Origin: Acidisarcina polymorpha
GTDB lineage: Bacteria; Acidobacteriota; Terriglobia; Terriglobales; Acidobacteriaceae
DNA length: 64,000 bases
Assembly (NCBI RefSeq): GCF_003330725.1
Contig: NZ_CP030840.1
Location: forward strand, 4,898,001-4,962,000
Reading direction: 5' to 3'
Positions 38,825-57,900 of the stretch are shown here, piece after piece; position 1 is the stretch's first letter; every line of letters starts with the position of its first letter. The notes under the pieces were generated by a model that saw nothing but the letters and a program-made list of their open reading frames with translations, did no database searches and had not been told where the DNA came from. The position numbers were made by a program, and so were the translations under genes.

Positions 38825-38836
38825 CTTCCCCGATTC

Positions 38837-40051: not shown

Positions 40052-40053
40052 GG

Positions 40054-42585
40054 TCAAGGCGCAGTCACAGTAAGGTCTGCAGTGAGTTGTGTGTTTTCAG
40101 AGGAGTCGCCCACATAGACTTTGAAGACGCCGGGATCGACGATCCAATCATGCGCCTGTTCGTCCCAGTAGGAGAGAGCACGCTTGTTGATGATGAGGTC
40201 GACGTGTTTGGATTGGCCGGAATCGAGGCGTACTTTTTCAAATCCCTTCAGCTCTTTCGCCGGACGCTTTACCTTGGCCGACGGATCACCGATGTAGAGT
40301 TGGGCCACATCCGCCGCGGGGCGAGCGCCAATGTTTGCGATGTCGAAAGAGACATGGAAATTGCCGACCGCACCGGCATCCGGGGAAATGCTCAGGTTGC
40401 TAAACCTGAAATCGCTGTAGGTGAGACCGAAGCCAAATGGGTAGAGCGGCTTTTTTCCATTTGTAGTGAAGTATCGATAGCCAAGAAAGACGCCTTCTTC
40501 GTAGCGAATATGAGGTGTGACGCCTGGCGCGACGGGTGCAGCGTAATAGTGGTCATGCACCGGGTTCTCTTCCCACGAGCCGACAAAAGTGAATGGAAGC
40601 TTGCCTTCGGGTGAGCGTTCGCCGGAGAGGATCTCGGCGACGGCTGTGCCGCCCTCCTGGCCGGGATACCAGAGCTGCAGAAACGCTGGCACATGGCCAA
40701 GCCATGCGCGAGTATCCACCTCGCCGCCCGCAACCAAAGCAACGATGGTATTTTTGTTGGCGGTCGCGATGGTGTCGATCAGCGCGTCTTGGGCGAACGG
40801 TAACCTATACGTGCGGTCGAATCCCTCGCTCTCTAGTGAGGAGTCGTAACCGACAGCGACAAGTACGGCGTCGGCCTGGGCAGCAATAACCCGCGCATTG
40901 GGCGAAATGAGGTCGTTTACAGCGCGAATGCCTAGGCTAATGCGGGGAGCATCGGCGCCTGGGAGATAGTCGAGCTGTACAGCGATGGGAACGTCCTTCT
41001 TGAGATCTAGCTCCGTCCATAATGGAGACTGCGACTCATGTCCAGGCTGCTGGATGAGAAGCTTGCCATCGACCAGCAAGCGATAGCTGTCGGATGCAAC
41101 CGCAGCCGTCGCGAAAATGTATGCGCCGGTTGATTGAGGTGTAAAGGTTGCCTTATATCGGATGCTCTGCTTCTCCGACACGGCGGCTGTCCATTCGTTT
41201 GGACGCCAATTGGCAACATTGCCGGCATAGCTCACCGACCCCGGCATCCCAGAGAAGTCGCGATTGGAAAATGTGTCGATCTCTACCGTGTCATGCTCCG
41301 CCGCGCCGTCCAGCGGCCGATCGAACTTGGTGGCGTTGTACAGGTCTTGAACGGCGATGACGCCGGGCGAGTAAAGCACCTTCAGCCCTCGCAAACTGCT
41401 TAGGCCTCGCAAAATGCTTTCCGCGTCGAATGGAGTAACGTAGGAGCTGCCCCCCCCCCCAGTATTCGCCGGCCATGCTGCGGGGCCTATGACGGCAAGC
41501 GTATGGATCTTTGTGAAGTCGAGCGGAAGCAAAGTGCCTTCATTCTTTAGGAGAATTATGCTTTCTCGCGCCTCTTGAAGAGCAATGGCACGAGATTCGG
41601 GGTTGTCGCGGGGAATCGAGAGATCGAGCTGCGGTCGGTCTCCGAAGCCAAAGCGGAGGGAGATGCGGAGGATGCGTCGCACCTTGTCATCGATCGTCGC
41701 CATGGAAACGACACCAGATCGAATCGCAGGAAGCAGCGTAGTGCGATTCATGTAGTCGGGGTTGGGCATCTCCAGGTCAAGTCCGGCATTGGCCGCAGCT
41801 ACGCCGTCGTAGGTCGCAGCCCAATCCGACATGAGCACACCATCGAACCCCCAGTCTTTCTTGAGCACCTCCAAGTTCAGCCATTTGTTCTGAGTGGCGT
41901 GCTCGCCGTCGATCAGGTTGTAGGAATCCATCACGGCCCCCACGCGGGCCTCGCGGACCGCAGCCTCGAATGCGGGAAGATAGATCTCGCGCAAGGTACG
42001 CTCATCCGCGTCGGAGCTGACGTCATGCCTGCTGTATTCCTGGTTGTTGAGCGCATAATGCTTTACGGTCGCTACTACACCGCGGCTTTGGATCCCCTCG
42101 ATGTAACCCACGACCGTTCTCGACGCGAGGTAGGGATCTTCGCCGAAGTACTCGAAGTTTCGTCCGCACATTGGCGCACGATAGATGTTCACTCCTGGGC
42201 CGAGAAGATAGGAGACGCCCTGAGCGCGAGCATCGTTGCCCAGCGCTTCGCCTATGCTGAAAGCGAGCGCAGGGTCCCATGATGCCGCAAGTGCGATACC
42301 TGCCGTGTATGCAGTCGACGGGCCGTCGGGATGCGCGCCGACCGGCCCGTCGGACAGCCGTAGCCGAGGAAAACCCAGTTTGGGCTCAGCGTAAATGTAC
42401 GTTCCCGCATCGCCGCCGATCAGCTGGATCTTTTCATCCAGCGTGAGCTTGGCGAGCAGGGAATCGATTTTCCGCTCCATCACAGCATCGTCGCTTGGAG
42501 GGGCGGAGGATTGCGCCAGACTTTGTGTTAACAAAAGGAACGGGACGTAAATCAGAAGGCCGGCGATCTTGCGTGTTCCGCGCAA
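40054..42585 (-). CDS. Exported GH3 beta-glycosidase with PA14 insert
   Basis: An 843-residue GH3 enzyme. A leader (IAGLLIYVPFLLLTQSLA) precedes an N-terminal TIM barrel with TLDEKIQLIGG, YLLGPGVNIYRAP, KHYALNNQE and nucleophile Asp in GVLMSDWAA; the second domain has GGGGSSYVTPF, a PA14 insert (YIFATAAVASDSYRLLVDGK), and a C-terminal fibronectin-III-like domain. Barrel motifs are intact. The likely start is TTG 42585, with AAGGGAGG just upstream; no in-frame ATG is closer. An 11-base poly-C at 41450-41460 lies inside it (see repeat). It is the first gene of the operon, divergent from the AraC regulator. Confidence 0.92.
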   Translation of the reverse strand: MRGTRKIAGLLIYVPFLLLTQSLAQSSAPPSDDAVMERKIDSLLAKLTLDEKIQLIGGDAGTYIYAEPKLGFPRLRLSDGPVGAHPDGPSTAYTAGIALAASWDPALAFSIGEALGNDARAQGVSYLLGPGVNIYRAPMCGRNFEYFGEDPYLASRTVVGYIEGIQSRGVVATVKHYALNNQEYSRHDVSSDADERTLREIYLPAFEAAVREARVGAVMDSYNLIDGEHATQNKWLNLEVLKKDWGFDGVLMSDWAATYDGVAAANAGLDLEMPNPDYMNRTTLLPAIRSGVVSMATIDDKVRRILRISLRFGFGDRPQLDLSIPRDNPESRAIALQEARESIILLKNEGTLLPLDFTKIHTLAVIGPAAWPANTGGGGSSYVTPFDAESILRGLSSLRGLKVLYSPGVIAVQDLYNATKFDRPLDGAAEHDTVEIDTFSNRDFSGMPGSVSYAGNVANWRPNEWTAAVSEKQSIRYKATFTPQSTGAYIFATAAVASDSYRLLVDGKLLIQQPGHESQSPLWTELDLKKDVPIAVQLDYLPGADAPRISLGIRAVNDLISPNARVIAAQADAVLVAVGYDSSLESEGFDRTYRLPFAQDALIDTIATANKNTIVALVAGGEVDTRAWLGHVPAFLQLWYPGQEGGTAVAEILSGERSPEGKLPFTFVGSWEENPVHDHYYAAPVAPGVTPHIRYEEGVFLGYRYFTTNGKKPLYPFGFGLTYSDFRFSNLSISPDAGAVGNFHVSFDIANIGARPAADVAQLYIGDPSAKVKRPAKELKGFEKVRLDSGQSKHVDLIINKRALSYWDEQAHDWIVDPGVFKVYVGDSSENTQLTADLTVTAP
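41450..41460. repeat. 11-bp homopolymer (C on +, G in the coding strand) within the GH3 gene
   Basis: Eleven consecutive C occur on the + strand; in the GH3 frame they read as four glycines (TGGGGSS). A one-base change in length would frameshift the gene before its PA14 insert and C-terminal domains. Such tracts can act as slippage switches, or may be an assembly uncertainty. Confidence 0.8.
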
Positions 42586-42831
42586 ATAACCTCCCTTATA
42601 AGGTGACCAGACAAAAAGCAACAAGTTGTACAGGGCCGCAATTCTTCAGTACCTTGTTGTGAAGAAAAGGTTAGTTTGGTGATTTGTCCTCTTTCTGTGA
42701 CGAACAGAGTGGTTGTTCTAAGAAAAAGATCATTCTCCCGGGAACCTCTCGGATCAACAATTTTGTCGAATTCCGCTATAGAATCATTGTTTCCCTTTGT
42801 TATACTGATTGAGTCAAAAAACACGACTCGA

Positions 42832-43815
42832 GTGAATACTCCAGAACTCACCGCAGAAGAGAACGATTTTTTGGTATCCACTTCGCAGGTCAACGCCGAA
42901 GGCGTTCATGTCTGGCAATTTGATCCGACTTGTCCGGTTGATGTCGTCCGGCATAAGCTCAGCGGCCGGTACCCTTTCCGCATGAACCGACATGAGTACT
43001 ACGAGATCGTCTTTCTACGCTCCGGGTCGGTGATGTGGCAGGTGCAGGATTCGATGGTCGGCGAGAATGAAGGCGACCTCTTCATCATGACCAATCCGAA
43101 ATATCATCGAGTCACCGAGCATTCCAGCTCCGAAATTCAGGCCGAGTCGCTGTTTTTTCACCCTGAACTAGTGAAGTCCGCGTGGGGCAGCGATTTTCGG
43201 GCACTGGAGGACTTCTTCTCACGCGACCGGTCGCTTCCACACGTCTTTCCTGCCGAATGCGGTCTTCCGCAAGAGATTCATCACCTGATACAACAGATTT
43301 CAACGAAGCTTCCTGCCACCGATCTGCGGGCCCGTTTAACGGTAAGGGCCTACCTGAAGATGATCCTCGTGCTGCTGATGACCCACGCCGGGATGCCGGA
43401 AAGGTCTTCGGTTACGGGGTCGGACCGCAGAAGGGTGGCCTTCGACTCCTTTAAGCCCCTCTTTCAACTTCTTGAGAAGAGATACAGCGAGCCGGTCAGC
43501 CCAAATGATGCCGCGAGGGTGATGCACATGAGTCCATCCAATTTCCGACGCACCTTCAAACAGGTCACCGGTCAGTCATTTGTCTCCTATCTGAATAACT
43601 TCCGCGTCGCCAAGGCGCAGGAACTACTGGCCAGTAGCGATATGCCGATCTCCGAAGTTGGCCTGGAGACGGGTTTCTGCGACCAGAGCTATTTCGGCAT
43701 GATTTTCCGCCGGCTGACACAGGCCACCCCCAGGCAATACCGTAGGCAAATCCAGCAGGTGCGAAGGCATAAGGATTATGACCGGGCGACGTCTTCCTAT
43801 TTTTATAACGCCTAG
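42832..43815 (+). CDS. AraC family transcriptional regulator
   Basis: A 327-residue regulator with a cupin-like sensor at the N-terminus (HEYYEIVFLRSGSVMW, MVGENEGDLFIMTNP) and a C-terminal double HTH (about 230-320: NDAARVMHMSPSNFRRTFKQ, ISEVGLETGFCDQSYFGMIF). This is the AraC/XylS layout for sugar-responsive activators. I use GTG 42832; the longer frame to 42676 opens with residues that look non-coding, so the exact start is uncertain. It is divergent from the GH3/GH27 operon and is probably its regulator. The C-terminal end is followed by a 283-bp gap before the apiose-type operon. Confidence 0.85.
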   Translation: MNTPELTAEENDFLVSTSQVNAEGVHVWQFDPTCPVDVVRHKLSGRYPFRMNRHEYYEIVFLRSGSVMWQVQDSMVGENEGDLFIMTNPKYHRVTEHSSSEIQAESLFFHPELVKSAWGSDFRALEDFFSRDRSLPHVFPAECGLPQEIHHLIQQISTKLPATDLRARLTVRAYLKMILVLLMTHAGMPERSSVTGSDRRRVAFDSFKPLFQLLEKRYSEPVSPNDAARVMHMSPSNFRRTFKQVTGQSFVSYLNNFRVAKAQELLASSDMPISEVGLETGFCDQSYFGMIFRRLTQATPRQYRRQIQQVRRHKDYDRATSSYFYNA

Positions 43816-44098: not shown

Positions 44099-44944
44099 CT
44101 ACCAACGGCCCGCGACGCCGCGAAGATACTTTACGCCCTCGAAGGCGATTGCTTCGGGTGTGGGCGCAAGGTCTCGCCAGATCGCGGTTGCGGCCGCTAT
44201 TTCCGGAAGCAGATAGCCAAAACTCTCGATCACCAATGCACCTTCGTAGCCAGTCTCGCGCAGGGTCTTCACGATGCCGGGAAAATCCGTGTGTCCGCTG
44301 CCCGGAATGCCACGGTCGTTCTCGCTGATGTGAACATGCTTCAGTCTGCCCTTTGCGAGGGCAAAAGCAGCCGGCACATTCTTTTCTTCGATATTGGTGT
44401 GAAAGGTGTCGAAGAGGATGCCAACGCGTGGATGATCGATCGCCGCGCAAAAGCGAACGGCCTCTTCGGCGGTGGTCAGAAAGAATGTCTCGAACCGGTT
44501 GAGCGGCTCGATCGCAAGAGCGATTCCATTTTCATCGAGCGTGGCTGCTAGGTTCTGAAAACACTCGATCGCGAGCTTCCACTCTTCGTCGGTTCTGCGC
44601 CGCCCGCTGAGGTATCCTACAGGCGCATAGAGCGGACCTGCAATGAGCTTCGATCCAAGATCGGCGGTCGCTTTCACGCAGGCTTTCAAGTGCGCGAGGG
44701 TCTTAGAGCGTACGCCTACGTCTTCGTGAATGGGGTTCAGGCCCGGCGGCAGAATCGCGCAAACTGTGCTGTCGAGCCCGTTTTCATTGAGCGCCCGGTT
44801 AAGCTGCGCGATCGGCACCGCCATCGGCTCAAACATCGGCACTTCGAAGAGATCGAAGCCGGCCGCGCGCAATCGAGGCAGCAGGTCGATCTGCTCCTGA
44901 TCGATGCGCGCGGACCATAACAACCCGTTTACGCCGATTTTCAT
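44099..44944 (-). CDS. TIM-barrel sugar isomerase/epimerase (D-tagatose 3-epimerase-like)
   Basis: A 281-residue protein of the xylose-isomerase-like TIM-barrel superfamily. ALAIEPLNRFE carries the metal-binding Glu, GILFDTFHTN the second metal and His site, HVHISENDRG the third, and ALVIESFG the last Glu; this is the pattern of D-tagatose/D-psicose 3-epimerases. It is the last gene of the operon, overlapping the PD40 gene by 4 bp (ATGA at 44941-44944), which also fixes the start. If the operon makes a ketotetrose or ketopentose, this epimerase could feed it into central metabolism; that is inference. Confidence 0.85.
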   Translation of the reverse strand: MKIGVNGLLWSARIDQEQIDLLPRLRAAGFDLFEVPMFEPMAVPIAQLNRALNENGLDSTVCAILPPGLNPIHEDVGVRSKTLAHLKACVKATADLGSKLIAGPLYAPVGYLSGRRRTDEEWKLAIECFQNLAATLDENGIALAIEPLNRFETFFLTTAEEAVRFCAAIDHPRVGILFDTFHTNIEEKNVPAAFALAKGRLKHVHISENDRGIPGSGHTDFPGIVKTLRETGYEGALVIESFGYLLPEIAAATAIWRDLAPTPEAIAFEGVKYLRGVAGRW

Positions 44945-45885
44945 CTTTCGTGTGCCTTCGGATGCCAGACGGCCCGGCTGCCGTCGATCGCGCACTGGTA
45001 GCGTAGTGTCTCCAGCACATGTGGCTCCCTGCCATCGGCGCGCATCACCCATACGGGACGCTTATCCCCCCGCCGCTCCTCGTGTACTTGCCGGGCAATC
45101 GTCGCATCGTTCCAGAAGTTTTGATCTGTAAGACGGAAGGATATCCATTGCTGATCAGGAGACCAGGCAGGCGAGGTCGCGAACATGCCGAAATTAGTGA
45201 GCTGGTGGATGTCGCCGGTGGCGACATCCAGCGAAAATATCTCCAACACCTCGCCTAATGAATCGGAGTATAGGATGCGTTTGCCATCAGGGGAGAAGGT
45301 CGGTGTCACCGCGCCAATATGGTTCTGATGGGATGTGAGCTGCCGTACTTCAGCTGTTTTCAGATCTAAGACGAAAACGCAATAGCCGGTCTCGACCCAG
45401 TTAGTGAAGGTGATCGCCGCCCCGTTGGCAGAGATATGGGGATCGCGTCCCGGCGCGACAACCTGAACCTCGCGCTTCTGTGTATCGATTACCTCGAAGC
45501 GCGCATTGGTGCCCGAGATGCCGAAGGCGATGAGGTCGTCCTCGCGGGACCAACTCGGAAGGTAAACCGCCGAAGGAGGGGAGACATGCGTGAGTTGCTC
45601 GACGTCGCTCCCGTCGGCCTTGGCGATGAATAGGTTGTAAGCTCCGTCACGGTCGGAGGTGAAGAGAAATCTCTCGCCATCAGGCGACCACATGGGATAG
45701 CGCTGGTGGGAATTTGGGCTGCGGGTGAGATTTGTTGCGTCGCCAGAGTAAGGATCAAAGCGAAACACCTCGGTGTTGCCTGTACGCAAACTGGTCATGA
45801 GGAATTCATGGCCTCGCAGTTCGCCCCCGAAGAGTGCCGGCGTGACGACCGCGGTAGGTGAGGGGGGGACAACACCTGTGGTCAT
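44941..45885 (-). CDS. PD40/TolB-like beta-propeller protein (oligogalacturonate-lyase-like?)
   Basis: A 314-residue cytoplasmic protein with repeated PD40 blades: YPMWSPDGERFLFTSDRDGA, PTFSPDGKRILYSDSLGEVL and SPAWSPDQQWISFRLTDQNF. The repeats form a WD40-like propeller as in TolB and in oligogalacturonate lyases (PL22), which are about 70 residues longer. There is no leader, so it is not a TolB. It is coupled at both ends (ATGA with the Gfo/Idh gene, ATGA with the epimerase). Either an intracellular uronate lyase or a non-enzymatic propeller is possible. A GGGG-rich site precedes the ATG. Confidence 0.7.
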   Translation of the reverse strand: MTTGVVPPSPTAVVTPALFGGELRGHEFLMTSLRTGNTEVFRFDPYSGDATNLTRSPNSHQRYPMWSPDGERFLFTSDRDGAYNLFIAKADGSDVEQLTHVSPPSAVYLPSWSREDDLIAFGISGTNARFEVIDTQKREVQVVAPGRDPHISANGAAITFTNWVETGYCVFVLDLKTAEVRQLTSHQNHIGAVTPTFSPDGKRILYSDSLGEVLEIFSLDVATGDIHQLTNFGMFATSPAWSPDQQWISFRLTDQNFWNDATIARQVHEERRGDKRPVWVMRADGREPHVLETLRYQCAIDGSRAVWHPKAHER

Positions 45886-46997
45886 GCTTGCCCCTTCTCG
45901 AAACGAGGGAGGGATACGATTTTACCCCCGAGCATGGCCGATTCATGGGCGCAGATACCGGCGCACGTCCAGTTCACCGACTTATACACATCGGGGAACG
46001 ACGGCCGGTTCTCGACGATGCTGCTAACGAACTCATGCACCAGATGGGGATGCGAGCCGCCATGGCCGCCGCCCTGAGTGAATGAGAGATGCGCATGGTC
46101 ACTATCGTATACGCCCTTGGTGGTGAACCGCTGGATCGGTTTCGGCAGTAAATGCGCGAAATCGCCCACATCCACGCGCTCGGGCTGCTCACCGGTATGG
46201 ACGATCATCTTCTCGCCTTCCACGAGCGTCCACTCGAACGACGCAAGTTCTCCATAGACATCGAAGCTCTCGATGTACTCACGCGCGGTCTGGAATAAAG
46301 AACGCGTCACCTCAAAGGCGAGGGGTTGGTTGCGAACCTGGAAATGCGCCGTCTCAACTGCAAAGGGCGACCCATATTTGTCGGTGAGATTCTTGGCGAT
46401 TCGGCCCGAGCCCAGGCATGAAACGTAGTCTGCCTCGCTTTTTACGATAGCCAGGCAAGGGCTGACGGCGTGCGTAGCATAATGCATAGGCGGTAGGCCC
46501 TCCCAGTAGCCGGGCCATCCCGCCATTTCCTGCTGGTGGCTGCCCCGCATGAACTGGATGCGTCCGAGTTTTCCCGAGTCCCTCAATTCGCGGGCATAAA
46601 GGAATTCACGAGTATAGATGGCGGTCTCCATCATCATGTAGGCTTTGCCGGACGCTTCAGCCGCAGCGACGATATCGCGGCATTCGTCAACCGTCGTCGC
46701 CGCAGGCACTGTGCAGGCGACATGCTTCCCGGCGCGCAGCGCGGCGATGCTTTGCTGAGCATGCAGGTGGATGGGAGAATTGATATGCACAGCGTCGACC
46801 GCGTAGTCGGCGAGGAGCTCGTCGAACGAGGTGTAGCGCCTGGCGACCCCATAGGTCTCGCCCACTTCGTCCAGCGTTGGCTGGGTGCGCTGACAGATCG
46901 CGTACATCTCGGTCTGGGGGTGATGCTGATAGATCGGAATGAACTCTTTTCCGAATCCCAGGCCTACGATGGCCACATTGAGCTTCTGTTTCTTCAC
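45882..46997 (-). CDS. Gfo/Idh/MocA-family oxidoreductase
   Basis: A 371-residue NAD(P)-dependent oxidoreductase. VAIVGLGFGKEFIPIYQHHP is the Rossmann loop, AVHINSPIHLHAQQSIAALR and GKHVACTVPAATTVDE correspond to the EKP region (here TVPAA, so the usual Lys is missing), and GGGHGGSHPHLVHEFVSSIV is the C-terminal substrate site. It starts at GTG 46997 with GGGAG upstream and overlaps the ApnO-like gene by 4 bp. The absence of EKP-type Lys97 makes classical sugar dehydrogenation uncertain; some such enzymes act in elimination or retaining chemistry (GH109-like). Confidence 0.82.
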   Translation of the reverse strand: MKKQKLNVAIVGLGFGKEFIPIYQHHPQTEMYAICQRTQPTLDEVGETYGVARRYTSFDELLADYAVDAVHINSPIHLHAQQSIAALRAGKHVACTVPAATTVDECRDIVAAAEASGKAYMMMETAIYTREFLYARELRDSGKLGRIQFMRGSHQQEMAGWPGYWEGLPPMHYATHAVSPCLAIVKSEADYVSCLGSGRIAKNLTDKYGSPFAVETAHFQVRNQPLAFEVTRSLFQTAREYIESFDVYGELASFEWTLVEGEKMIVHTGEQPERVDVGDFAHLLPKPIQRFTTKGVYDSDHAHLSFTQGGGHGGSHPHLVHEFVSSIVENRPSFPDVYKSVNWTCAGICAHESAMLGGKIVSLPRFEKGQA

Positions 46998-47875
46998 GCG
47001 ATGCTCCCGGTTGTGGAGGGCGCTCCCTTTGCGGAATGTCCCTCCGGATGCAGCATCACATGGATCGCGCGATGCAGCGATTCAGGCTCGAATATGTGTC
47101 TCCAGTCGGGTTGAATAATCTGTTCCATGCCCCACTGGATGGCGATCTTGGCTGCGTCGGAGAAGGGTGAAGGCTCGGCTCCGAAGACAATGGCCATGGC
47201 AATCTGGGCGTGGCCGGCCATAAAGGCCTCCGCCGCCTCGCGGGGGACGCCGCGTTCGATGGCCGCATCCATGGAGGCTTTCATCAGCGTGGCCGCGGTG
47301 GCCACCACGATTTCCGACATTGCGGGCTCTAGTAGAGCGAACTCTTTAGGTGTGACGCGATGGGCTGTGCGCACCGGCGCGAACATCGCTCTGGAGACTT
47401 CGATCCCTTGGTGGAAGAATTCTTCGGATCCCTCGATGAGCGCGACCAAGATGTCCTGGGTAGCGATTCCGCCGAAGAAATCGCGGCGACCGGTGTGTGG
47501 TTCCTGCTCGGCAAATAATGGCGGATGGCACGGATGGGCGATCATTTGTGTTATGTCGGCGCGCGAGGGAATCTCGCCAACATAGGCTGCGGCGGCGTCC
47601 AATGCGATCAGCACCGCCCCGGACTTCATCTGAGGTACGATGGCGTGGGAAATCGAGCCGATCAGTTCGTCGGGCACGGCGAGTACGATGAAGTCCGCCT
47701 CTCGTACTGCGTCATCTAGCGTCGTCACGTGTTTGCCTGCGCCTTCGATCGCGGCCGCCTTTCCCGAATCTCTCTCGCATAAAAGCAACCGAAAGCCTGA
47801 GGCGGCTTCGATCTTATCCGCTGCCCTAGCTCCCATTTTGCCTCCGGCACCCACAATCGCGACCGTTTTGCTCAT
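46994..47875 (-). CDS. apnO: D-apionate oxidoisomerase-like dehydrogenase
   Basis: A 293-residue protein. TVAIVGAGGKMGARAADKIE is the Rossmann loop, FIVLAVPDELIGSISHAIVP follows, and the long C-terminal helical region (MAGHAQIAMAIVFG, IAIQWGMEQIIQPDWRHIFE) is that of the 6-phosphogluconate-dehydrogenase-like group to which D-apionate oxidoisomerase (ApnO) belongs. In known pathways ApnO turns D-apionate into 3-oxo-isoapionate. The assignment rests on this fold plus the ApnL-like gene three positions up; other 3-hydroxyacid dehydrogenases share the fold. A clear GAGGAGAG lies before the ATG. Confidence 0.65.
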   Translation of the reverse strand: MSKTVAIVGAGGKMGARAADKIEAASGFRLLLCERDSGKAAAIEGAGKHVTTLDDAVREADFIVLAVPDELIGSISHAIVPQMKSGAVLIALDAAAAYVGEIPSRADITQMIAHPCHPPLFAEQEPHTGRRDFFGGIATQDILVALIEGSEEFFHQGIEVSRAMFAPVRTAHRVTPKEFALLEPAMSEIVVATAATLMKASMDAAIERGVPREAAEAFMAGHAQIAMAIVFGAEPSPFSDAAKIAIQWGMEQIIQPDWRHIFEPESLHRAIHVMLHPEGHSAKGAPSTTGSIA

Positions 47876-47901
47876 TTTCTCTCCTCAGCGAACTCGAGAA
47901 T

Positions 47902-48714
47902 TCAATTCAGAATGTAGCGACGAAGATACGAAATGCTCTCCACCGCCCAACGATGCTCCAATGCGACGGTCTCAGAGATGCTGCTCTGTTCTGGAGGCCA
48001 TAATTCTAAAATTGCGTTAGCGTTCACTCGCATCGCGCGCAAGGATGCGATCAGGCTGGGAACGTCGAGCTGACCTGCACCAGCGGGGCGCCCCTCTACT
48101 ATGAAGCCCATTCGGTGCTGCATTCGGCTGATTTGATAGTCCTTGATGTGCAGACTCGCGATGTAGGGCGCTAAATTCTCGATCACGCAAGCCGGCCCTT
48201 CGGGAATGGCAAGCGAGTTGACGGTGTCGAGGGTCACGCCAACCCACGCGCTGTCCACTCGTTGGAGCATCTTGGCCAGAAGAACGGACGGGATGCACGA
48301 ATTTTCGATGGCTAGTCGAACCCTGGCTCGTTCCAAATTCAACAGGACGCGCTGGACGCAGTCCTCCACCGCATCGATGCCGATCTGGACGGAGTTGGCT
48401 TCGTCGATGCTCCATCGGAGGGTTGCGGAGCCAACCTGTTTAGCCAAATCGATCTGTCGGGCCAAGTACTCGGGATCGAGCCCTTGCGTCCCAATTTCGA
48501 TTTCAATGTGGCGCGCCGAGGCGCACCGCATCAATTGGTGAAGCTCGTCAGTGGGGAGCCCGTCGATAGGAAGATTGGGGCCATATTGCACCACTCCTAC
48601 TTCCAACGCAGACGCAAGACTCAGGAGATCCAAAGCATTCAGCGGCTTTTCGGGCTGATAGCCGGGGGCGCCGATGGACCAGGCAAAGGTATACGTACCG
48701 ATTCCCAGCTTCAT
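47902..48714 (-). CDS. TIM-barrel protein, 3-oxo-isoapionate decarboxylase-like (OiaC type)
   Basis: A 270-residue protein of the sugar isomerase/AP-endonuclease-2 superfamily. MKLGIGTYTFAWSIGAPGYQ opens it; RLAIENSCI carries the first metal-site Glu, VGVTLDTVNSL, SLHIKDYQ and AILELWPPEQ follow. OiaC, which decarboxylates 3-oxo-isoapionate to L-erythrulose, is of this superfamily, and the gene sits between the ApnO-like and ApnL-like genes. That context makes OiaC the best guess; sequence alone does not separate it from other members. The start is ATG 48714, overlapping the ApnL stop by one base (TGATG), with AGGAGAAGGGG upstream. Confidence 0.6.
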   Translation of the reverse strand: MKLGIGTYTFAWSIGAPGYQPEKPLNALDLLSLASALEVGVVQYGPNLPIDGLPTDELHQLMRCASARHIEIEIGTQGLDPEYLARQIDLAKQVGSATLRWSIDEANSVQIGIDAVEDCVQRVLLNLERARVRLAIENSCIPSVLLAKMLQRVDSAWVGVTLDTVNSLAIPEGPACVIENLAPYIASLHIKDYQISRMQHRMGFIVEGRPAGAGQLDVPSLIASLRAMRVNANAILELWPPEQSSISETVALEHRWAVESISYLRRYILN

Positions 48715-50597
48715 CACCCCTTCTCCTGCGATCTGCCCTCGAGGGTGACGATGCCTCGGGGAGGAATCACGACGTCTGCTGCGCCGCCCGCCGCCATGAG
48801 AGGTCTGAGCGATAGGGCGCGCCAACGTGCCGGCTCCGTCAGGGCTTCGAGGCAATTGCTTTCGTCGAGGCACCGAGTGTGCAACCACTGGCAAACAGCC
48901 TCGGCTTGCACAGTAACGGATTGTTCATCATTGTCGAAGTTGGTCAGTAGGACGCGAATGCGCTCGCCCGCACGGACCGCGATTCCTTCGACTCGCAAAG
49001 GATGGCTTGAGCGGGTAAACAGCGACTCTCCGCCTCGAAATTCAATCAAATCCGACAATACATGGTAGACCGGGGAAATCGCCCCGCATCCCAGTCCGGA
49101 AGAGGCGATGTATGCGTTGCTATTATGGACCGGCATTAGTCCACAAAGTCCTACATCCGTGAAGTAAGCCACGCTGTCAGTCTCGCCCTCGGCGAGATGC
49201 TTAAAACTGGCAAGCGTCCAAGCTGCCTCAAACAACGACATTTGAAGAGCGCCTGCGCGAAAACCTTCATCGCTGGGACAAACTGACGAAAGGCAGGAGA
49301 CGGCCAGCGGTGATCCCTGGGCCAAACGTCGCGCCTCGGTGGCCAATGATGCCTGGGCAGAGAGACTTTCCACTAGAGAATCGTTATCTGAGGCGTGTAC
49401 GCGGGGATCGATGGAAAACCACACGCCGTGTCCCTGTCGTGCGATGGACCGATTTCGGTTGATCTCCACGAATCCTTTGCTGCTACCCCAATAGACTTCG
49501 GCGCCGACGGGCAGCGCCGGCGTGAGAGGATCGAACTTGGAATCTGCATCGATCAGCCATCGGCAGACTGCCGCTCCGCCGAGAGACTGCTCCAGGAGGC
49601 GTCGATCCTTCAGCCAGGACCCGTCCCGGTAAACTGTGCGGATCTCCAATGGGATTTTCAATGCCTTAGCCAAGGCGCTCGCGTCTGAAATGCGGATCTC
49701 CCGGCGAGGATCTATGAAATCATGTTCGATGCTTATGTATTCAGGATGCAGTGCACGCAACAATCCCAGCCGATCTAGAATTGCCTCCGGCAAATAGGAG
49801 AAGCCCAATCCGATTTTCGGCAAACGAGAGCCTCGGAGACCGGAGATACGAAAGACATTCGACTCGGGCGTGTTCGAATGCGGTCGCACGTGTGAGGCTA
49901 GGCTCAGGCACGCAGATTGCTGGATTCTAGACCCCTCGTCGACACGATACGGGTTGGGAAGACGCAGCGGTCGCGAATAAATCTTGAACGAAGCGTCACT
50001 CCAGTTGCGCTGGTCTTCTGCTTCAAAGAGATCGCCTGAGAGTGAAAGTTGAATAGGCGGGAATTCGTCGAGCCGGTAAGAGATCTCCCGCGCGTCGGTG
50101 AAAAGTGGCCATGGAGCGATCTCCTGGGGAAGTACCAGCTGCTGGATCGTGCCATTTTCCGCCGTAACGGAAAGAGTCCTTCCGCAAAATTCGGTTGTGG
50201 ATTGGAGCACGCAGATGCCAATTCGGCTTGCCCAAAAAGTGGAGAAGGCGGTGCCATCAAAAGCGTAGCGGATAGTCCCGTCCTCCGAACCCTCGGCGCG
50301 AAGCGTCCAGCGGAAATCGACATCCTCAAGGTGGCTTTGGCACTCGCAGGAGAGAAAGAAGCTTTGGACATTGCTTTCAACGTCCAAGGATGAAATTGTT
50401 CGTGGTAACGTTTCCCAATTCTTTCCGCGAACAAGCACGCAAAGCCGCTGCACCACTTCGGTGTGATCGAGCGCGATTCTACGCAGATCGCCGTCCTGAA
50501 AATCCATCGACCATGGGCCCGCCCGAAGAGGAATCTTGGCGAGACGTTGGGCTTCGCCCTCGTAGTGAATCGCTTTGCGCCCGACGGTTGCGTTCAT
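48714..50597 (-). CDS. apnL: D-apionate lactonase-like protein
   Basis: A 627-residue protein that fits D-apionate lactonase (ApnL). GPWSMDFQDGDLRRIALDHT, VVQRLCVLVRGKNWETLPRT, then DGTIRYAFDGTAFSTFWASR, IGICVLQST and CGRTLSVTAENG match the family's N-terminal sandwich; a middle region with IEHDFIDPRREIRISDASAL, and a C-terminal domain ending VVIPPRGIVTLEG complete the expected three parts. ApnL opens D-apionolactone to D-apionate. No signal peptide, so cytoplasmic. It overlaps the upstream dehydrogenase gene by 4 bp (ATGA). I recognise the family from pattern memory only. Confidence 0.75.
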   Translation of the reverse strand: MNATVGRKAIHYEGEAQRLAKIPLRAGPWSMDFQDGDLRRIALDHTEVVQRLCVLVRGKNWETLPRTISSLDVESNVQSFFLSCECQSHLEDVDFRWTLRAEGSEDGTIRYAFDGTAFSTFWASRIGICVLQSTTEFCGRTLSVTAENGTIQQLVLPQEIAPWPLFTDAREISYRLDEFPPIQLSLSGDLFEAEDQRNWSDASFKIYSRPLRLPNPYRVDEGSRIQQSACLSLASHVRPHSNTPESNVFRISGLRGSRLPKIGLGFSYLPEAILDRLGLLRALHPEYISIEHDFIDPRREIRISDASALAKALKIPLEIRTVYRDGSWLKDRRLLEQSLGGAAVCRWLIDADSKFDPLTPALPVGAEVYWGSSKGFVEINRNRSIARQGHGVWFSIDPRVHASDNDSLVESLSAQASLATEARRLAQGSPLAVSCLSSVCPSDEGFRAGALQMSLFEAAWTLASFKHLAEGETDSVAYFTDVGLCGLMPVHNSNAYIASSGLGCGAISPVYHVLSDLIEFRGGESLFTRSSHPLRVEGIAVRAGERIRVLLTNFDNDEQSVTVQAEAVCQWLHTRCLDESNCLEALTEPARWRALSLRPLMAAGGAADVVIPPRGIVTLEGRSQEKG

Positions 50598-51619
50598 ACC
50601 AGCCGCACACTCTGGCCGGTGCGGGCTGATTCATAAGAGGCGTCCACCAGCCTAACGCTTTTTATATTGTCTTCGCCGGTCGTTTCGGCGGTTCCTTCAC
50701 CTTTCAAAGCGCAGAGCAGATTTGCCTGGCATGGGACGATACTCGAGTGAACAATATCGTAGGCCGGATCTGCCCAGCCATATCTTGGAGGAGGGACCCG
50801 CCGAGAATGTGTGCCTCTTGAGGTTGTTATACGGACTTGGAAATCGAGCGACAGTTCAATGGATCCGCGGCTGCCTTCGACGAAGATGCAGGTCTCAGGA
50901 AATCTGTCCCGTTCGAGATGGTTGCCGGCGTAGGCCAACTCGCAGACCACTGTGCATCCGTTCGCGGTTTCGAGCACAACAGTCGCGACATCTTCTCCTA
51001 CGATGTCGGCATGAACGCGGGCGGTCTGGCAGTAGAGGCGGCCCATTTCTCCGAAGAGAAACCGGGCCACATCGAGAATGTGACTACCGAGATCGGCGAG
51101 TATGAACTGCTCGGCGCTGCGCAGAAAAGGCTGATTTTCGAAGACCGGAAAACCAGAAACCATGTCGATTCGCGCGCGGAAAGGTAGACCGATTTCGCCG
51201 CCATCCAGTAGCCGTTTCACCTCGCGGATCGGCGTCTGCCATCTCCAGTTTTCGTTGATCAGGAGCGGAACCCCCGCTTCGGCGCAGCTCTTGACCATAT
51301 CTTCGGCTTCATCGACCGAGGTTGCCATCGGCTTCTGACAGACGACAGGCAACCTTCGGGACGAGGCCATCCTCGTGAATAGCGCATGGGTTTCGACACC
51401 AGTGATGATGTCCACGAAGTCAAGGCTCTCCTTGTCAAGCATTTCCCTGGCGTCTGAATACCAGTGGGGGATCTGAAACCGCGCGGCGATTGCTTCGGCC
51501 TTTGCTGCTGTCCGGTTGTAGATGGCCACGCAATTCGTGCCTCCAATTTCGCGCCAGCCGGCCAATTGAAAAGTTGTCCAAAATCCAGCACCAAAGGCCG
51601 CAAAATTTAAACTTGGCAT
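50594..51619 (-). CDS. apsD: Gfo/Idh/MocA-family dehydrogenase, D-apiose dehydrogenase-like
   Basis: A 341-residue NAD(P)-dependent dehydrogenase. FAAFGAGFWTTFQLAGWREI is the Rossmann loop with an unusual FWTTFQ stretch, VVCQKPMATSVDEAEDMVKS has the Lys of the EKP-type motif (QKP), and LADLGSHILDVARFLFGEM carries the catalytic His region. Enzymes with the GAGFWxxFQLAxW start occur beside ApnL genes and include D-apiose dehydrogenase (ApsD), which makes D-apionolactone. It is the first gene of the operon, with AGGAGCGGAC before ATG 51619. Confidence 0.7.
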   Translation of the reverse strand: MPSLNFAAFGAGFWTTFQLAGWREIGGTNCVAIYNRTAAKAEAIAARFQIPHWYSDAREMLDKESLDFVDIITGVETHALFTRMASSRRLPVVCQKPMATSVDEAEDMVKSCAEAGVPLLINENWRWQTPIREVKRLLDGGEIGLPFRARIDMVSGFPVFENQPFLRSAEQFILADLGSHILDVARFLFGEMGRLYCQTARVHADIVGEDVATVVLETANGCTVVCELAYAGNHLERDRFPETCIFVEGSRGSIELSLDFQVRITTSRGTHSRRVPPPRYGWADPAYDIVHSSIVPCQANLLCALKGEGTAETTGEDNIKSVRLVDASYESARTGQSVRLV

Positions 51620-52054
51620 GTCCGCTCCTGACTACGCTGTGCCTTCGATGCCCGTGTCGGGCTATTAGAATTCTGCGCGCCAGTGATATCAAAGGAACAG
51701 CTTATTGGCTGGCGCTCCCCAAACTCTGTGACCATGAACGCATCTTTTCTAGCAAAACGATCACATGAGATCGATTTTTGGACGTTCCCGGGCTGAAGCA
51801 GCGGTCTAGTAATAGGACGAGTCTCTTCAGAAATCAGAAGGCCCTACAATCAGGCAGTTGCAGTGAGTCCTGACAAAAGGGGATCAGCGGCTAGACCTAG
51901 CCAGCCCTTCTCTTCCATCTGATCTGAGTGAGAGAAAATAGTCAGATTCTCACATCTGGCATCGTCGGTTTTCGATAGTTTCGCCTAAGTGAAACCTCGG
52001 AAGTTTTGGTCCAACTCGCGGCGTTGGCGTCTTGCCCAAGCTCGAATAGACGCT
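51620..52054. promoter_or_regulatory. Divergent control region of the apiose-type operon and the GH92 gene
   Basis: This 435-bp gap separates the minus-strand operon start (51619) and the + strand mannosidase. It contains short inverted repeats such as CGATC-N6-GATCG (51758-51773) and CAGAT-N6-ATCTG (51943-51958) that could be regulator sites. A + strand GTG at 51989 would lengthen the mannosidase by 22 residues. No ORF is supported here otherwise. Confidence 0.35.
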
Positions 52055-54370
52055 ATGCAGCTTAAAGATGGCGTAAGCCGGCGCCATTTTTTAGGTTCGC
52101 TGGCGGCCTCGGCGGCGTTGGTCACGCCAACAAATCGGTCATTCACCAGAGCCGCCGATAAACAAAGTTTAGACGGGCCGCGGGCCGCGCCGAAGGCAAG
52201 TGTGGATTCAGTAGACCCGCACATTGGCGGCATCGGTCACCTACTCACATCTAACTCGCCAGAGGCCCAGCTTCCGCACGGCATGATGGTGGTTACGCCG
52301 TGGTTCGCTCGCGACGTGACCGATGTCTATCTCGCGACTCGAATGTACGGATTCACCGTTGGTGCCTCCGTCATCATGCCCGTAAGCGGAAAGATCACGG
52401 CTGCTCCGGACAGGATATTTTCTGAGTGGGACCCGGACAACGATGTTGTCACACCTTATTCTTCTCGCTATCTGCTCGAAGACTTCGAAACCGTCGTCGA
52501 GTATGCCGTAAGCGAGCGCGGGGCTCATTTCCGCTTTCATTTCCCGGACGGTAAACCCGCCAATATCTTCTTGAGGCCCCAGGAAACCGCGCAATACAAA
52601 TTAAGCGGAAGCAAAACGATTCTGGGGACGGAGCAAAAACAGGGCGTGAACACCTATCTTTGTGTCGAGTTCTCGCGCTCTCCCGTTTCGCAGCGGAAAG
52701 TGACAGTGCCGGCCGGAGGCGCGGTGCTAGGCGACACAGATGCGCTCGTCCTTGACTTCGGCCAGGGAGTTGGAGTGGTCGAGGTCCGCGCCGCCATCTC
52801 CTACATCTCGAGGTCACAGGGGGCGCAGACATTGCGTGAACAATTAGCCGCGAAGAGCTTTGACGAGACGCGCTCCGCCGGGCGCGCAGCCTGGGAAAAA
52901 GCGCTGGAGGCGATTCATGTCGAAGGCGGCAGCGACGAGCAGCGCGCGATATTTTACACAGCGCTCTATCGTTTTTTTCAATATCCGAAAGATGTCACCG
53001 AAGATGGTCATTATTTCGGCCCGTACGACAGAAAGATTCGCGATGCGTCAGGCAATGACTTCTACATCGAGGACAATCTCTGGGATACGTACCGAACGCG
53101 CCACCCTCTTTCGGCGCTGATTGAGCCTAGGCGGCATCAGGACATGCTGCGTTCGTACGTCAGGCTCTTTGAAGAATCGGGATGGATGCCGCAGTTTCCT
53201 TTTATGGCCGGCGACCTGCCATTCATGGACGGCAACAATGCGGCATCGATGTTCCTGGACGCATACGGGAAGGGTCAGCGGGATTTCGACCTAGAGTTGG
53301 CATATCAAGGCATCCGCAAAGACGCGATGCAGGCAACGATGCTCCCATACCGCCGGGGGGCCCTCACTGATCTCGACCAGTTCTATCAGAAGCACGGCTA
53401 TTTTCCTGCGCTACGCAAAGGTGAGAAGGAGACTGAACCCCGTGTCGATCCCGATATGCGGCGGCAGGCCGTTTCTGTCACACTTGATTCCGCGTACGAC
53501 GATTGGTGCGTCGCCGAGGTTGCCAAGATACTGGGAAAGGCCGACGACACGGAGTATTTCGGTCGCAGGGCGCTGAATTATCGTAATCTCTATAATCCCG
53601 CGACCGGGTTTATGTCACCCAAAGGTGCGAACGGCGAATTTATCCCAGACTTCGATTCAAAATGGTCGGGCGGTCAGGCCGGCAGGGACTACTTCACCGA
53701 ATGCAATGGTTGGGTCTACAGCTTCGACGTCCCGCATGACATTGGTGGCCTGATCGCGCTGATGGGCGGTCGTGATCGCTTCGTCGGCAGGCTAGATCAG
53801 CTCTTTGCAGAGGGGTACAACGGCAGGCTGAAATTCGAATTCCTTGCGCAATTTCCTGACTCCACCGCCCTGATCGGGCAATATCCGCAAGGCAATGAGC
53901 CCGCCCATCACATCGCTTATCTCTACAACTACGCCGGCGCTCCCTGGAAAACTCAGAAGCGTGTGCGCCAGATTATGCGCAACTGGTACGCGTCAAGACC
54001 GCTTGGGCTCCCGGGTGACGACGACAACGGCGCGATGTCGAGCTGGTATGTCTTCAGCGCGATGGGATTTTATCCGATATGTCCGGGGCGACCGATTTAC
54101 ACGATAGGCAGCCCACTCTTTAATAAGAGTTTGATTCAAGTCAGTGACGGCAAGATCTTCACCATCGTGGCGAACCGGACCTCTGTTGTAAACAAGTACA
54201 TCCAATCGGCCCGATTGAACGGTTCTGACTTCAACCGGACATGGTTTGAGCACGCCGATGTGGTAAATGGCGGCACATTGGTTCTTGAGATGGGACCTGA
54301 GCCAAACAAATCGTGGGCCGCTGGGCTGGACGCGGCGCCCCCGTCTCTTTCACCGCAATTGAATTCATGA
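52055..54370 (+). CDS. Tat-exported GH92 alpha-mannosidase
   Basis: A 771-residue GH92 enzyme. The twin-arginine leader reads GVSRRHFLGSLAASAALV. The N-terminal beta-sandwich (VDPHIGGIGHLLTSNSPEAQ) and the (alpha/alpha)6 domain with DNLWDTYRTRHPL and the family hallmark GDDDNGAMSSWYVFSAMGFY, ending YPICPG, are intact. Known GH92 members are exo-acting, calcium-dependent alpha-mannosidases cleaving alpha-1,2 and other linkages, usually exported. ATG 52055 is used; GTG 51989 would add 22 residues. It is divergent from the apiose-type operon and followed by a leader remnant and the TonB receptor on the same strand. Confidence 0.93.
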   Translation: MQLKDGVSRRHFLGSLAASAALVTPTNRSFTRAADKQSLDGPRAAPKASVDSVDPHIGGIGHLLTSNSPEAQLPHGMMVVTPWFARDVTDVYLATRMYGFTVGASVIMPVSGKITAAPDRIFSEWDPDNDVVTPYSSRYLLEDFETVVEYAVSERGAHFRFHFPDGKPANIFLRPQETAQYKLSGSKTILGTEQKQGVNTYLCVEFSRSPVSQRKVTVPAGGAVLGDTDALVLDFGQGVGVVEVRAAISYISRSQGAQTLREQLAAKSFDETRSAGRAAWEKALEAIHVEGGSDEQRAIFYTALYRFFQYPKDVTEDGHYFGPYDRKIRDASGNDFYIEDNLWDTYRTRHPLSALIEPRRHQDMLRSYVRLFEESGWMPQFPFMAGDLPFMDGNNAASMFLDAYGKGQRDFDLELAYQGIRKDAMQATMLPYRRGALTDLDQFYQKHGYFPALRKGEKETEPRVDPDMRRQAVSVTLDSAYDDWCVAEVAKILGKADDTEYFGRRALNYRNLYNPATGFMSPKGANGEFIPDFDSKWSGGQAGRDYFTECNGWVYSFDVPHDIGGLIALMGGRDRFVGRLDQLFAEGYNGRLKFEFLAQFPDSTALIGQYPQGNEPAHHIAYLYNYAGAPWKTQKRVRQIMRNWYASRPLGLPGDDDNGAMSSWYVFSAMGFYPICPGRPIYTIGSPLFNKSLIQVSDGKIFTIVANRTSVVNKYIQSARLNGSDFNRTWFEHADVVNGGTLVLEMGPEPNKSWAAGLDAAPPSLSPQLNS

Positions 54371-54379
54371 GGCTGAAGC

Positions 54380-54520
54380 GTGCCCGGACCAACTAAGTCT
54401 ACGAATCCCTCCCGTCGCACCTTCCTAGGAAGCGAGCTGCCGGAACAATAGGCCTGGCCGCGTTTGACCAGGCGCTGCCTTCGCCTTCGCACGTGTGTAG
54501 CACGCCATGGAGGAGATGCC
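54380..54520 (+). pseudogene. Remnant of a Tat-type leader gene
   Basis: GTG 54380 opens VPGPTKSTNPSRRTFLG, a twin-arginine motif, and then the frame stops at 54449. In the adjacent frame the text continues AAGTIGLAAFDQALPSP, as in a Tat h-region. So one base was gained or lost in the leader, and no enzyme body follows. It suggests a second exported protein was deleted after GH92. The remaining 54521-54948 shows no gene. Confidence 0.5.
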
Positions 54521-54948
54521 TTTGAGGTCTGGGGTAGGCGATGTCCTGTTTTCTTATTGAGATTTCGAGCGCCCTCTCGACGTCGACGTAGTGGGGTTGG
54601 TGCAGACACAGGAAAGAGATCGCGGCAAGACAACTCACTGATGGCGAAGCTACTAGCATTTACCTGCTGCTTCCGGCGAAGACCAAATGATGGCTTCACC
54701 CCTATTCGACACAAAATATGACTCGCGTTGAATTGACCGTCAAGAGCTGACGCAGAGGCCGGCGCGACGATGTTTTTGACAGAGATTATTCCGAGTTTCT
54801 TACAGAACAGATCGTCATACGGCACGTAGTCTTCGTGTCCAGTGGAAAGAGCGCCGTGCGATCTGCGCGAAAACTGCGCACTAGCCGGAGTTGTAGGCCA
54901 CATGACGCTTTGGCTTTGAGTACCTGAATGGACTTTCCTGGAGGCAAT

Positions 54949-57900
54949 ATGTGTAAGCGGTTATTAGTAGCCTTAGTGATTTTCGTTGTGCTGGTCGTCG
55001 CCCCTGTACTTCTGGCTCAATCGGGCACCGGCAACATCACGGGGCGAGTGACCGATCCAACCGGAGCGGTTATTCCAGGAGCGAAGATCCTGGCTACTAA
55101 TCTAGATACCGGCGTCGTCAAGGAAGCAACCACGAATAGCGCCGGTGTATATCTGCTTCAAGAGCTAAAGCCGGGCCACTACAGCCTGCAAGCCTCGGCT
55201 CCTAACTTCAAAACCCTGCTGCGTTCCGGTGTCACCTTGGACGTCGAGGATCAGCTGGGCGTGGATCTGGCGCTCGAAGTGGGCGCCGTTTCGGATACAG
55301 TCACAGTGAAGCAGGATACCTCTGGGCTGCGAACCGAGGATGCACAGACAGGCGAGGTGGTTACCAATGCATTGGTCGAGAACATACCAAACATCTCGAC
55401 GGGCTCTATTCGCGACCCGTTTGCATTGATATCGATTGCCGGCAACGTTCAAGGGACCGGCGGTCGAGCGGGCTATGGGATTGGTCTCAACGGTATTAAC
55501 TCTCCCTCTACGACACGCATCAACGGCGGACGCACCGAAGCCACAGAATACCTTGTCGACGGTATTCCCGTGACGTTTGGTTTTGTGCACAACGTCTCAA
55601 ATGCCACACCTGCGACTGAAGACGTTGCTGAGTTTAAGGTCATCACGAACGGCTTGTCGGCCGAATATGGACGTCTCTCCGGCGGAGCTCTTAGTATTGC
55701 AACCCAGGCCGGGACGAACAATCTTCATGGTCAACTCTTCGAATATAACCAGAACGCCTTCCTGAACGCGAACAACTATCAAAACACCGCACAAACGCCA
55801 GTCGCGTCCAAGTCGAACTTCCGTCAAAATGATTTTGGGATCGCAATGGGTGGCCCCGTTATTTTGCCCCACTACAACGGCCACAATAAGACGTTCTGGT
55901 TTGCGAACTACGAGGGTCTGCGAAGCAGTCAATCGGGCAATGTGCAGCTCGCGCAGACGATCACCGATCAGGAGCGCACGGGAGATATGAGGGACATCGG
56001 AACTCCCGAAGGAGAAGCTTCAGGAAATGATCCTTATCCACAGGTTTGGAACCCTTACCAATACAATCCAAACCAGGTCGTTGACCCGAATACCGGAAAT
56101 CTGACTTATGAAAAATACCTATCTCAGGATCCACGGTGCCCTGGTCAGAACGGCGAGTGTATTCCTCAGGGCGAGCTCAATCCGATCACCCAGGCATACA
56201 TCGCCCTATTGCCCCATCCCAACCACGCGGTGATCGCGGGTTCTGGAACAGCCGGTAATTTCTCTATTCGTCAACCAGGTACGATCACTCAAAACAATTG
56301 GTCGGTTCGCATCGACCAAAATCTGAGCGAAAAAAGCAATATGTATGCCCGCTTTTCCTACAGCTCGGGTTCGACCTACACGGGTCCGCTCAACCCGGTT
56401 CTGGGCACTGCTTCCTATAACAATATTGATGGCGGTTACAGCGCGACCCTTCATTACAACCACGCGTTTTCTCCGACAACCCTTTTGGACGTTTACGTGG
56501 GTGGAAACTACAACCCTTTCAGCGGTGGCAACACTCTTCCTTCCAGCTACGACAACTCGAACCTTGGACTTAGTTCAAACGTTCTTGCACTGATCGGAAC
56601 GAAGAACAATATCTTCAACGTGCATAACGGACCCTTTAGCGAAGCCATGAATTTTGGCGGAAATCTCCCCGGTGGCGGACAACTATGGCCCATGCTACAG
56701 GCCGCAGTCTACAACAAAATAGCCTCTACTTCGTACTCCTACGGGGGTTCGATGACGAAGATTCTCGGACGTCACTCGCTCAAGTTCGGTTATGAGGGTC
56801 GGCGCTACTTCGACAATCCGCTAACGTCTTCGCAGGCTGCCTCAAACAACGACGGCGACGGTCTGGCATTCACAGCTGACGCGGTCGTGAATCAATACCT
56901 GGATACGGGTTCCAACACGTGGGGCTCCCAAGCCAACTCAAGCGGCTTGGGACAATTTCTATTGGGTGTTGATACCTGGGCCCAGATCACCGCCCAGGTG
57001 GGCCGCTCGCTCGCCCAAAACTACTATGCGTCTTACGTGCAGGACGACTTCAAAGCCACTCCAAAACTCACGCTCAATCTCGGCCTTCGCTGGGAGATGG
57101 AAAGTCCGGTTACGGAGCGCCATAACAACCTGAGCCTTTGGGACCCGAATGCGGCGCCCCCATTTAGTATAGTTCCTGGATACAGCTTTAGTGCGGCGGT
57201 CGCAGCCGCCGGCCTCAATCCGGCCGACGTGCAAACGCCTCCCTGGATAAACGGCTATTTGCCAGGAAATCTAGTATTAGCCGGTACGCCGGAGCACCCT
57301 GCACGCACCGCGACCGGCTATTATCCTTGGAATTTTTCTCCACGACTTGGTTTCGCTTACCAAATCGATTCTAAGACAGTCGTACGCGGATCGTTCGCGT
57401 TCATGTACCTTCCGACCAGCGGTAACATCACGAGCTATGGGGACGCCCCGGGCGTTACATACAGCACCCAAGCCAGCAACAATCCCACGCAGATCGCGAA
57501 TTATTCAGCCCTTCCCGGACAAGGCCTTAGCTCCGTGTCTGATCTATTTACACCCGCGCAAATCACCACTTTCGAGCACAACACTCACGCGGCTAACATC
57601 CAGACAACACAGACCATCGTGGGCACTGGCGGAGTCAACATTCATTCCCACATGCCGAGAGAATCCGACTGGGGTCTCAGTGTCCAGCGCCAGTTGCCCG
57701 GCGGCTGGCTAATGGAACTCATTTATTCGGCGAATTACAGTGACTCGCTGTTAGCGGAGGCGACGCCAAGCCGTTTCCCGGCCAATCTACATACGGGCGG
57801 TCCCAACGGCTCCAATGCCAGCATTTACACAACCCCGGTTGCGGCGCCGTTCGGTTCACAAATCCCGTGCATCAATCCCAACAGCTGCGGCATCATCGGG

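Follow-up and report, generated by a model that had tools for sequence, protein, structure and literature searches.

The window analysed here, 64,000 nucleotides of the Acidisarcina polymorpha genome (G000:C1:4898001-4962000), lies on a 7.11-Mb contig of a 7.6 Mb assembly that has 5 contigs and is 96.4% complete. Seven minus-strand open reading frames (ORFs) span window positions 44099-51619. Genes 1-4 of this run probably constitute a non-phosphorylating D-apiose/D-apionate catabolic operon. Apiose is a rare branched sugar of plants, in whose cell walls it forms cross-links of rhamnogalacturonan II. The seven genes and a neighboring regulator are as follows.

50594..51619, minus strand: gene 1, ApsD-like Gfo/Idh/MocA dehydrogenase, 341 amino acids (aa)
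48714..50597, minus strand: gene 2, ApnL-like D-apionolactonase, divergent, 627 aa
47902..48714, minus strand: gene 3, OiaC-like 3-oxo-isoapionate decarboxylase, AP_endonuc_2 TIM barrel, 270 aa
46994..47875, minus strand: gene 4, ApnO-like D-apionate oxidoisomerase, PGDH_C family, 293 aa
45882..46997, minus strand: gene 5, second Gfo/Idh/MocA oxidoreductase, 371 aa
44941..45885, minus strand: gene 6, PD40/TolB-like beta-propeller protein, 314 aa
44099..44944, minus strand: gene 7, ketose-3-epimerase-type TIM barrel, 281 aa, proposed erythrulose epimerase
42676..43815, plus strand: AraC-family regulator with HTH_18 and AraC_binding domains, convergent with the operon, possible regulator

The initial annotation described seven minus-strand genes with overlaps of 1-4 bp or a gap of 26 bp, and the ORF coordinates bear this out. 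From gene 1 to gene 7 the junctions are overlaps of 4 bp and 1 bp, a gap of 26 bp, then overlaps of 4, 4 and 4 bp. The start of gene 3 was set at ATG 48714 (over-extended ORF call at TTG 48894) and that of gene 7 at 44944 (over-extended call at 45052). The run goes beyond chance packing because clusters of at least two of the four pathway genes are found in other taxa too. A promoter and terminator scan was uninformative, with 1 promoter-like site against 3.0 expected and 14 terminator-like sites against 7.1 expected. We regard the apiose operon as real and probably working, with a mechanism read from homology and gene order only.

Gene 1 has three Pfam domains, GFO_IDH_MocA (71 bits) and two C-terminal domains. 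Its best PDB match is 5uhw (E 2.5e-80; next best 1.7e-18), titled as an Agrobacterium radiobacter oxidoreductase with NAD+ and magnesium, which we take to be ApsD. K96, D176 and H180, presumably catalytic residues, are invariant across 7 aligned sequences, and identity to six relatives at ApnL-bearing loci is 59, 57, 52, 48, 38 and 38%. Gene 1 overlaps the ApnL-like gene 2 by 4 bp, and an ApsD relative also adjoins ApnL in five other genomes of the same phylum (G608, G164, G104, G379, G285) and in Sinorhizobium meliloti. Support for the ApsD placement in the tree is low (0.39), and the predicted model has a predicted local distance difference test (pLDDT) score of 55.9. By family, conserved residues and adjacency to ApnL, gene 1 agrees with ApsD and is predicted to oxidize D-apiose. 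PMC6302742 names A. radiobacter K84 as a source of RuBisCO-like proteins in apiose work.

Gene 2 is the sole match in its genome to the NCBIfam model NF049900 (ApnL), at E 4e-58 and 197.4 bits. A Pfam search (E <= 0.001) and a PDB sequence search (E <= 0.01) both gave no match. Among 10 proteins scored with NF049900, only the S. meliloti protein (834.9), which served as the positive control, passes the curated cut-off of 750, followed by L024 (512.5) and G608 (306.9). Gene 2 was filed as ApnL-like rather than as an ApnL equivalog because 197.4 bits is below 750. Of 24 columns that never vary among the 14 other sequences of the alignment it keeps 22, with the EDQRNW motif intact, and it is predicted to hydrolyze D-apionolactone. 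The predicted structure has a pLDDT of 57.4 overall and is confident at residues ~16-235 only. In the model, residues 16-235 resemble galactose mutarotases and a beta-galactosidase domain (residues 744-1023) with Z 13.9-15.2 and a root-mean-square deviation (rmsd) of 3.4-4.4 among the 50 matches listed, which suggests that the N-terminal domain is a galactose-mutarotase-like sandwich. Long Foldseek matches to GH36 and GH97 (best E 4e-8) were rejected. Since their TM-scores are ~0.2 and their rmsd is >20 Å, no claim is made for the C-terminal half.

Gene 3 matches PF01261 with 58.3 bits (cut-off 31.1) and lies directly next to the ApnO-like gene 4. E137, D163, H189 and E237, presumably metal ligands, are invariant in 9 aligned sequences. 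Its relatives adjoin ApnL, ApnO or both at some loci and neither at others. Gene 4 matches PF16896 with 168 bits (cut-off 25), and its PDB matches, 5t57 (E 2.7e-63) and 3c24 (E 3.1e-61), do not carry the ApnO name. Identity is 34-42% to eight relatives at apn loci and 62-64% to G608. The PGDH_C domain and the linkage to apn genes agree with ApnO, whose activity is predicted for gene 4.

Gene-neighborhood comparison and homology both support the assignment of genes 1-4 as ApsD, ApnL, OiaC and ApnO that the initial annotation had proposed: pathway relatives cluster in other taxa, and G608, a genome of the same family, has the identical order. ApnL was matched in 3/300 genomes of this family, of which one is the window's own genome and another gave too weak a match to be counted. 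The G608 locus, the closest counterpart, carries AraC, ApsD, ApnL, OiaC, ApnO and GH27 genes on one strand, GH3 beyond them, and a divergently oriented gene with an apiosidase domain (269 bits). Identities between the window and G608 are 61% for ApsD, 30% for ApnL, 50% for OiaC, 62-64% for ApnO, 57.5% for AraC, 39.6% for GH27 and 43-56% for GH3.

In the same phylum gene 2 was matched in 12/396 genomes, its own included. Eight loci, G608 among them, were counted as ApnL loci. All four genes occur at 3/8 (G164, G104 and G608) and at least one partner at 7/8. The order in G164 and G104 is ApnL, ApsD, OiaC, ApnO. G379 has ApsD and ApnL with apiosidase-type fragments, G285 has ApsD, ApnL and ApnO, G242 has OiaC and an ApnL split over two contigs, and G211 has ApnL alone on a short contig. 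G235 (L019, 7270-17813) carries ApnL, ABC transporter genes, an ApnO relative, an OiaK-like gene (466 bits, cut-off 700) and an apiosidase, and is a same-phylum counterpart of the phosphorylating type.

On S. meliloti pSymB a Gfo/Idh gene adjoins the ApnL that passes the cut-off, and an annotated ABC permease, a ribose-type binding protein and a PGDH_C gene lie in its vicinity. The relatives of genes 1 and 4 beside this ApnL are 38% and 40% identical. A contig collection yielded 14 loci with gene 2 as query. ApnO and OiaC relatives occur within ~10 kb in 13/14 (L030 has none), and a clear ApsD is present at L029 only. Because the 11/14 loci with actinobacterial record titles are much alike, they were not treated as independent. 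A short-chain dehydrogenase lies between OiaC and ApnL in both of these loci that were checked (2 of 11). On a plasmid of Erwinia sp. E602 (L100, 2246-8663), genes for an MFS carrier, a dihydroxyacetone-kinase-family protein, a triose-phosphate-isomerase-family protein (PF00121), OiaC and ApnO stand in a row with rpiB nearby, and the stretch shown contains no ApnL. The Erwinia cluster looks like a route from apionate to erythrose 4-phosphate.

Carter et al. 2018 reportedly described the non-phosphorylating D-apiose/D-apionate pathway with ApsD, ApnL, ApnO and OiaC. The profiles PF07005 (SBD_N, OiaK) and PF00016 (RuBisCO_large) gave 0 matches in the window's own genome at E <= 0.001; the same profiles matched in 3 and 5 of 14 control genomes, respectively. 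The phosphorylating branch was rejected for lack of either match. Since there is no OiaK or RuBisCO-like match and an apiosidase is encoded ~29 kb away, the non-phosphorylating branch alone fits.

Two PF13204 (apiosidase) genes are present in the genome. The stronger (416-417 bits) is at C1:4978802, just past the window (L046:15125-18100), and the weaker is on contig C4. An MFS carrier of the FucP/GluP type, scoring below both NCBIfam cut-offs, directly precedes the stronger one. Apiosidase-type sequences at 4/29 related loci (L019, L029, L105 and, as fragments, L022) were counted in support. The AraC gene of the window is 57.5% identical to the one that immediately precedes the apn operon in G608 and 41% to one beside the G242 ApnL, and possibly regulates the operon.

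Every reaction, substrate and transport step of the proposed mechanism is inferred, and the intermediates are those of the published pathway. The apiosidase would probably free apiose from plant polysaccharide or glycosides, and the carrier beside it would probably import the sugar. ApsD would oxidize apiose at C1 to D-apionolactone, which the divergent ApnL would hydrolyze to D-apionate. ApnO would then oxidize and rearrange D-apionate to 3-oxo-isoapionate, and OiaC would decarboxylate the latter to L-erythrulose and CO2. L-erythrulose would enter central metabolism, possibly via the genome's own dihydroxyacetone-kinase-family enzyme. PMC10733421 describes L-erythrulose 1-kinase (LerK) and the isomerases LerI and DerI leading to erythrose 4-phosphate.

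A number of observations weigh against this assignment. Gene 2 does match the NCBIfam ApnL model, at a score far below the equivalog cut-off, and the NCBIfam matches of the operon proteins include no curated model for ApsD, OiaC or ApnO. Gene 2 lacks P435 and R437, which all 14 other sequences in the alignment keep, and the arginine segment missing from it is present in the G608 ApnL. Its identity to each of eight other ApnL copies (22-33%) is lower every time than that of G608 (24-43%), and it does not group with the G608 ApnL in the tree. With G164 as outgroup, lineage-specific ApnL sites number 119 in the window and 66 in G608 (p 1e-4). In relative-rate tests against the G608 copies, p-values being uncorrected and outgroup comparisons sharing sequences and so not all independent, the window ApnL was faster with p<0.05 in 5/8 outgroups. 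By the same tests OiaC gave p<0.05 in 2/6 outgroups, G608 being the faster there, and neither ApsD (0/5 outgroups) nor ApnO (0/6) differed significantly.

Other points on this side concern gene 3 and the genomic setting. Most OiaC relatives have D46 and an HDR loop; the Erwinia, Rhizobium and Salipiger copies lack the full HDR yet keep D46. Gene 3 has P at 46 and lacks the HDR loop, as does G608. OiaC-like barrels on Rhizobium, S. meliloti and Salipiger plasmids (L097, L098, L099) lie beside transketolase and short-chain dehydrogenase genes, and ApnO was not found in the stretches shown around them. Same-phylum genomes G298, G322, G050 and G024 (L025-L028, in this order) match the ApnL N-terminus over ~190-240 residues without apn partners and were not counted as ApnL; the L025 stretch has no Pfam family. 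Some 29 kb separate the apiosidase from the operon, and just 4 of 29 related loci have apiosidase-type genes. The operon has no transporter gene, whereas several relatives have ABC transporter genes beside ApnL. The genome's one Dak1-Dak2 kinase, 34% identical to that of Erwinia and 37% to that of Salipiger, is encoded 3.1 Mb from the operon.

Decay of OiaC was considered separately and rejected, because G608 carries the identical changes together with a one-residue deletion. The plasmid barrels of L097-L099 lie by split transketolase, short-chain dehydrogenase and TRAP transporter genes, which may belong to a pathway that acts on a related substrate.

Genes 5-7 had been left unexplained in the initial annotation. 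Gene 5 matches PF01408 (82.6 bits), and relatives 55-63% identical (E <= 1e-60) are found in 13 other genomes of 297; that of G104 (59%) is on a contig other than its apn locus. Gene 6 matches PF07676 (65.7 bits) and has no match beyond its own genome at E <= 1e-30 among the 297 genomes. Gene 7 aligns over nearly its whole length with D-tagatose, L-ribulose and D-allulose 3-epimerases of the PDB (E to 2e-38 among the five shown) and scores 157.4 bits against the NCBIfam D-psicose 3-epimerase, below the cut-off of 300. Relatives of gene 7 at E <= 1e-40 were found in 11 of the 297 genomes besides its own, which also holds a 45% identical paralogue. At 30 related loci, some of them cut by contig ends, none of the three genes has a close relative: gene 5 has 25-31% matches to its N-terminal domain only, gene 6 has none at E <= 1e-3, and the single match of gene 7 (22%) is the OiaC of L101. 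Gene 7 is proposed, more weakly than the rest of the scheme, to interconvert L- and D-erythrulose. Literature on L-erythrulose and 3-epimerases includes the phosphate-level epimerase EryC (PMC10733421).

We give equal weight to genes 5-7 serving apiose products and to their being a separate sugar module, an oxidoreductase with a ketose-epimerase-type barrel that is merely co-transcribed. The latter is compatible with genes 1-4 forming the apiose operon. A gene 7 relative directly follows a gene 5 relative in 1/5 gene 5 loci read (G014, where the pair stands alone), and the G608 locus contains the four apn genes but lacks genes 5-7. By tblastn, no gene 5 or PD40 relative was found at six further gene 7 loci. 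In two genomes of the family the gene 7 relative has a GH32 gene as its neighbor, in one case together with a sugar transporter, and the weak PDB matches of gene 5 include the C-glycoside oxidases DgpA, both in keeping with a module of its own. Against it, three 4-bp overlaps couple genes 4-7, so that genes 5-7 continue the run of apn genes.

A re-routed pathway was also considered and is doubtful. Here ApnL would act on another lactone or have lost its old role, and the OiaC active site would have shifted along with it. Gene 7 would convert L-erythrulose to D-erythrulose, which a kinase could turn directly into D-erythrulose 4-phosphate, making an L-erythrulose-1-phosphate isomerase unneeded, and genes 5 and 6 would let apiosyl glycosides enter by an oxidative side route.

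It is improbable that the four enzymes process another branched or rare sugar, such as D-hamamelose or a different branched aldose, following the same dehydrogenase-lactonase-oxidoisomerase-decarboxylase logic. The alterations of ApnL and OiaC at positions that most relatives keep, the ApnL score far under its curated cut-off, and the OiaC-like barrels at loci without ApnO are what such a substrate would have in its favor. Against it, the rates of ApsD and ApnO do not differ significantly from those of the G608 copies, and apiosidase-type genes occur both at related loci and ~29 kb away here. For hamamelose, a RuBisCO-like route is known from the title of a reference, and no such protein was matched in this genome.

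That the operon begins at D-apionate or apionolactone, gene 1 being no apiose dehydrogenase, is highly improbable: the Erwinia locus and the 11 actinobacterial-titled loci do have ApnO and OiaC without a clear ApsD, with the short-chain dehydrogenase noted above in both of those 11 that were checked, but gene 1 shares 4 bp with gene 2, and ApnL has an ApsD relative as its neighbor in the five genomes named above and in S. meliloti.

The surroundings of the operon are rich in carbohydrate-related genes. GH3 and GH27 genes lie just beyond the AraC gene, and window positions 35155-42624 and 51989-58857 encode pectate-lyase-type, GH125-like, GH27, GH3 and GH92 proteins and an outer-membrane receptor with a carboxypeptidase-regulatory domain, the receptor being in keeping with an acidobacterial genome. 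Beyond the window, L046:5043-10103 holds a tight run of genes for a copper amine oxidase, a PfkB kinase (weakly fructoselysine-6-kinase-like), a SIS-domain protein and an EamA carrier, which may be an operon for Amadori compounds (fructosamines).

With a clustered apn operon and an apiosidase-family gene nearby, apiose use becomes directly testable in a lineage where ApnL is rare. The route itself is known from other bacteria; the unusually altered ApnL and the three added genes set this operon apart. The pathway may still be changing at two points, the rapidly evolving lactonase and the epimerase-type gene that has been added. Apiose contributes to wall stability, according to PMC11747546. 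Literature pairing apiose with acidobacteria includes work on RuBisCO-like proteins in permafrost.

Four systems serve for comparison. Gene 7 resembles the D-tagatose/D-psicose 3-epimerase family in its near whole-length alignment and differs in its score (157 bits against a cut-off of 300). The phosphorylating OiaK branch is represented by G235, by RuBisCO-like proteins (PMC6302742) and by strain LCG007, which, according to PMC11747546, has the kinase branch, grows on D-apiose and carries a cluster whose genes bear the names of D-apiose enzymes. The ApsD, ApnL and ApnO steps are in common with that branch, and the window's genome differs from it in having no SBD_N and no RuBisCO_large match. 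The non-phosphorylating D-apiose/D-apionate pathway is alike in the four clustered enzyme families and in the lack of an OiaK or RuBisCO-like match. From it the window differs by the divergent ApnL, the altered OiaC active-site region, the lack of a transporter in the operon and the three added genes. The locus of G608 differs in that its ApnL (307 bits) keeps the arginine segment and genes 5-7 are absent, and it is alike in the ApsD-ApnL-OiaC-ApnO order, the AraC, GH27 and GH3 genes, the apiosidase domain and the OiaC variant.

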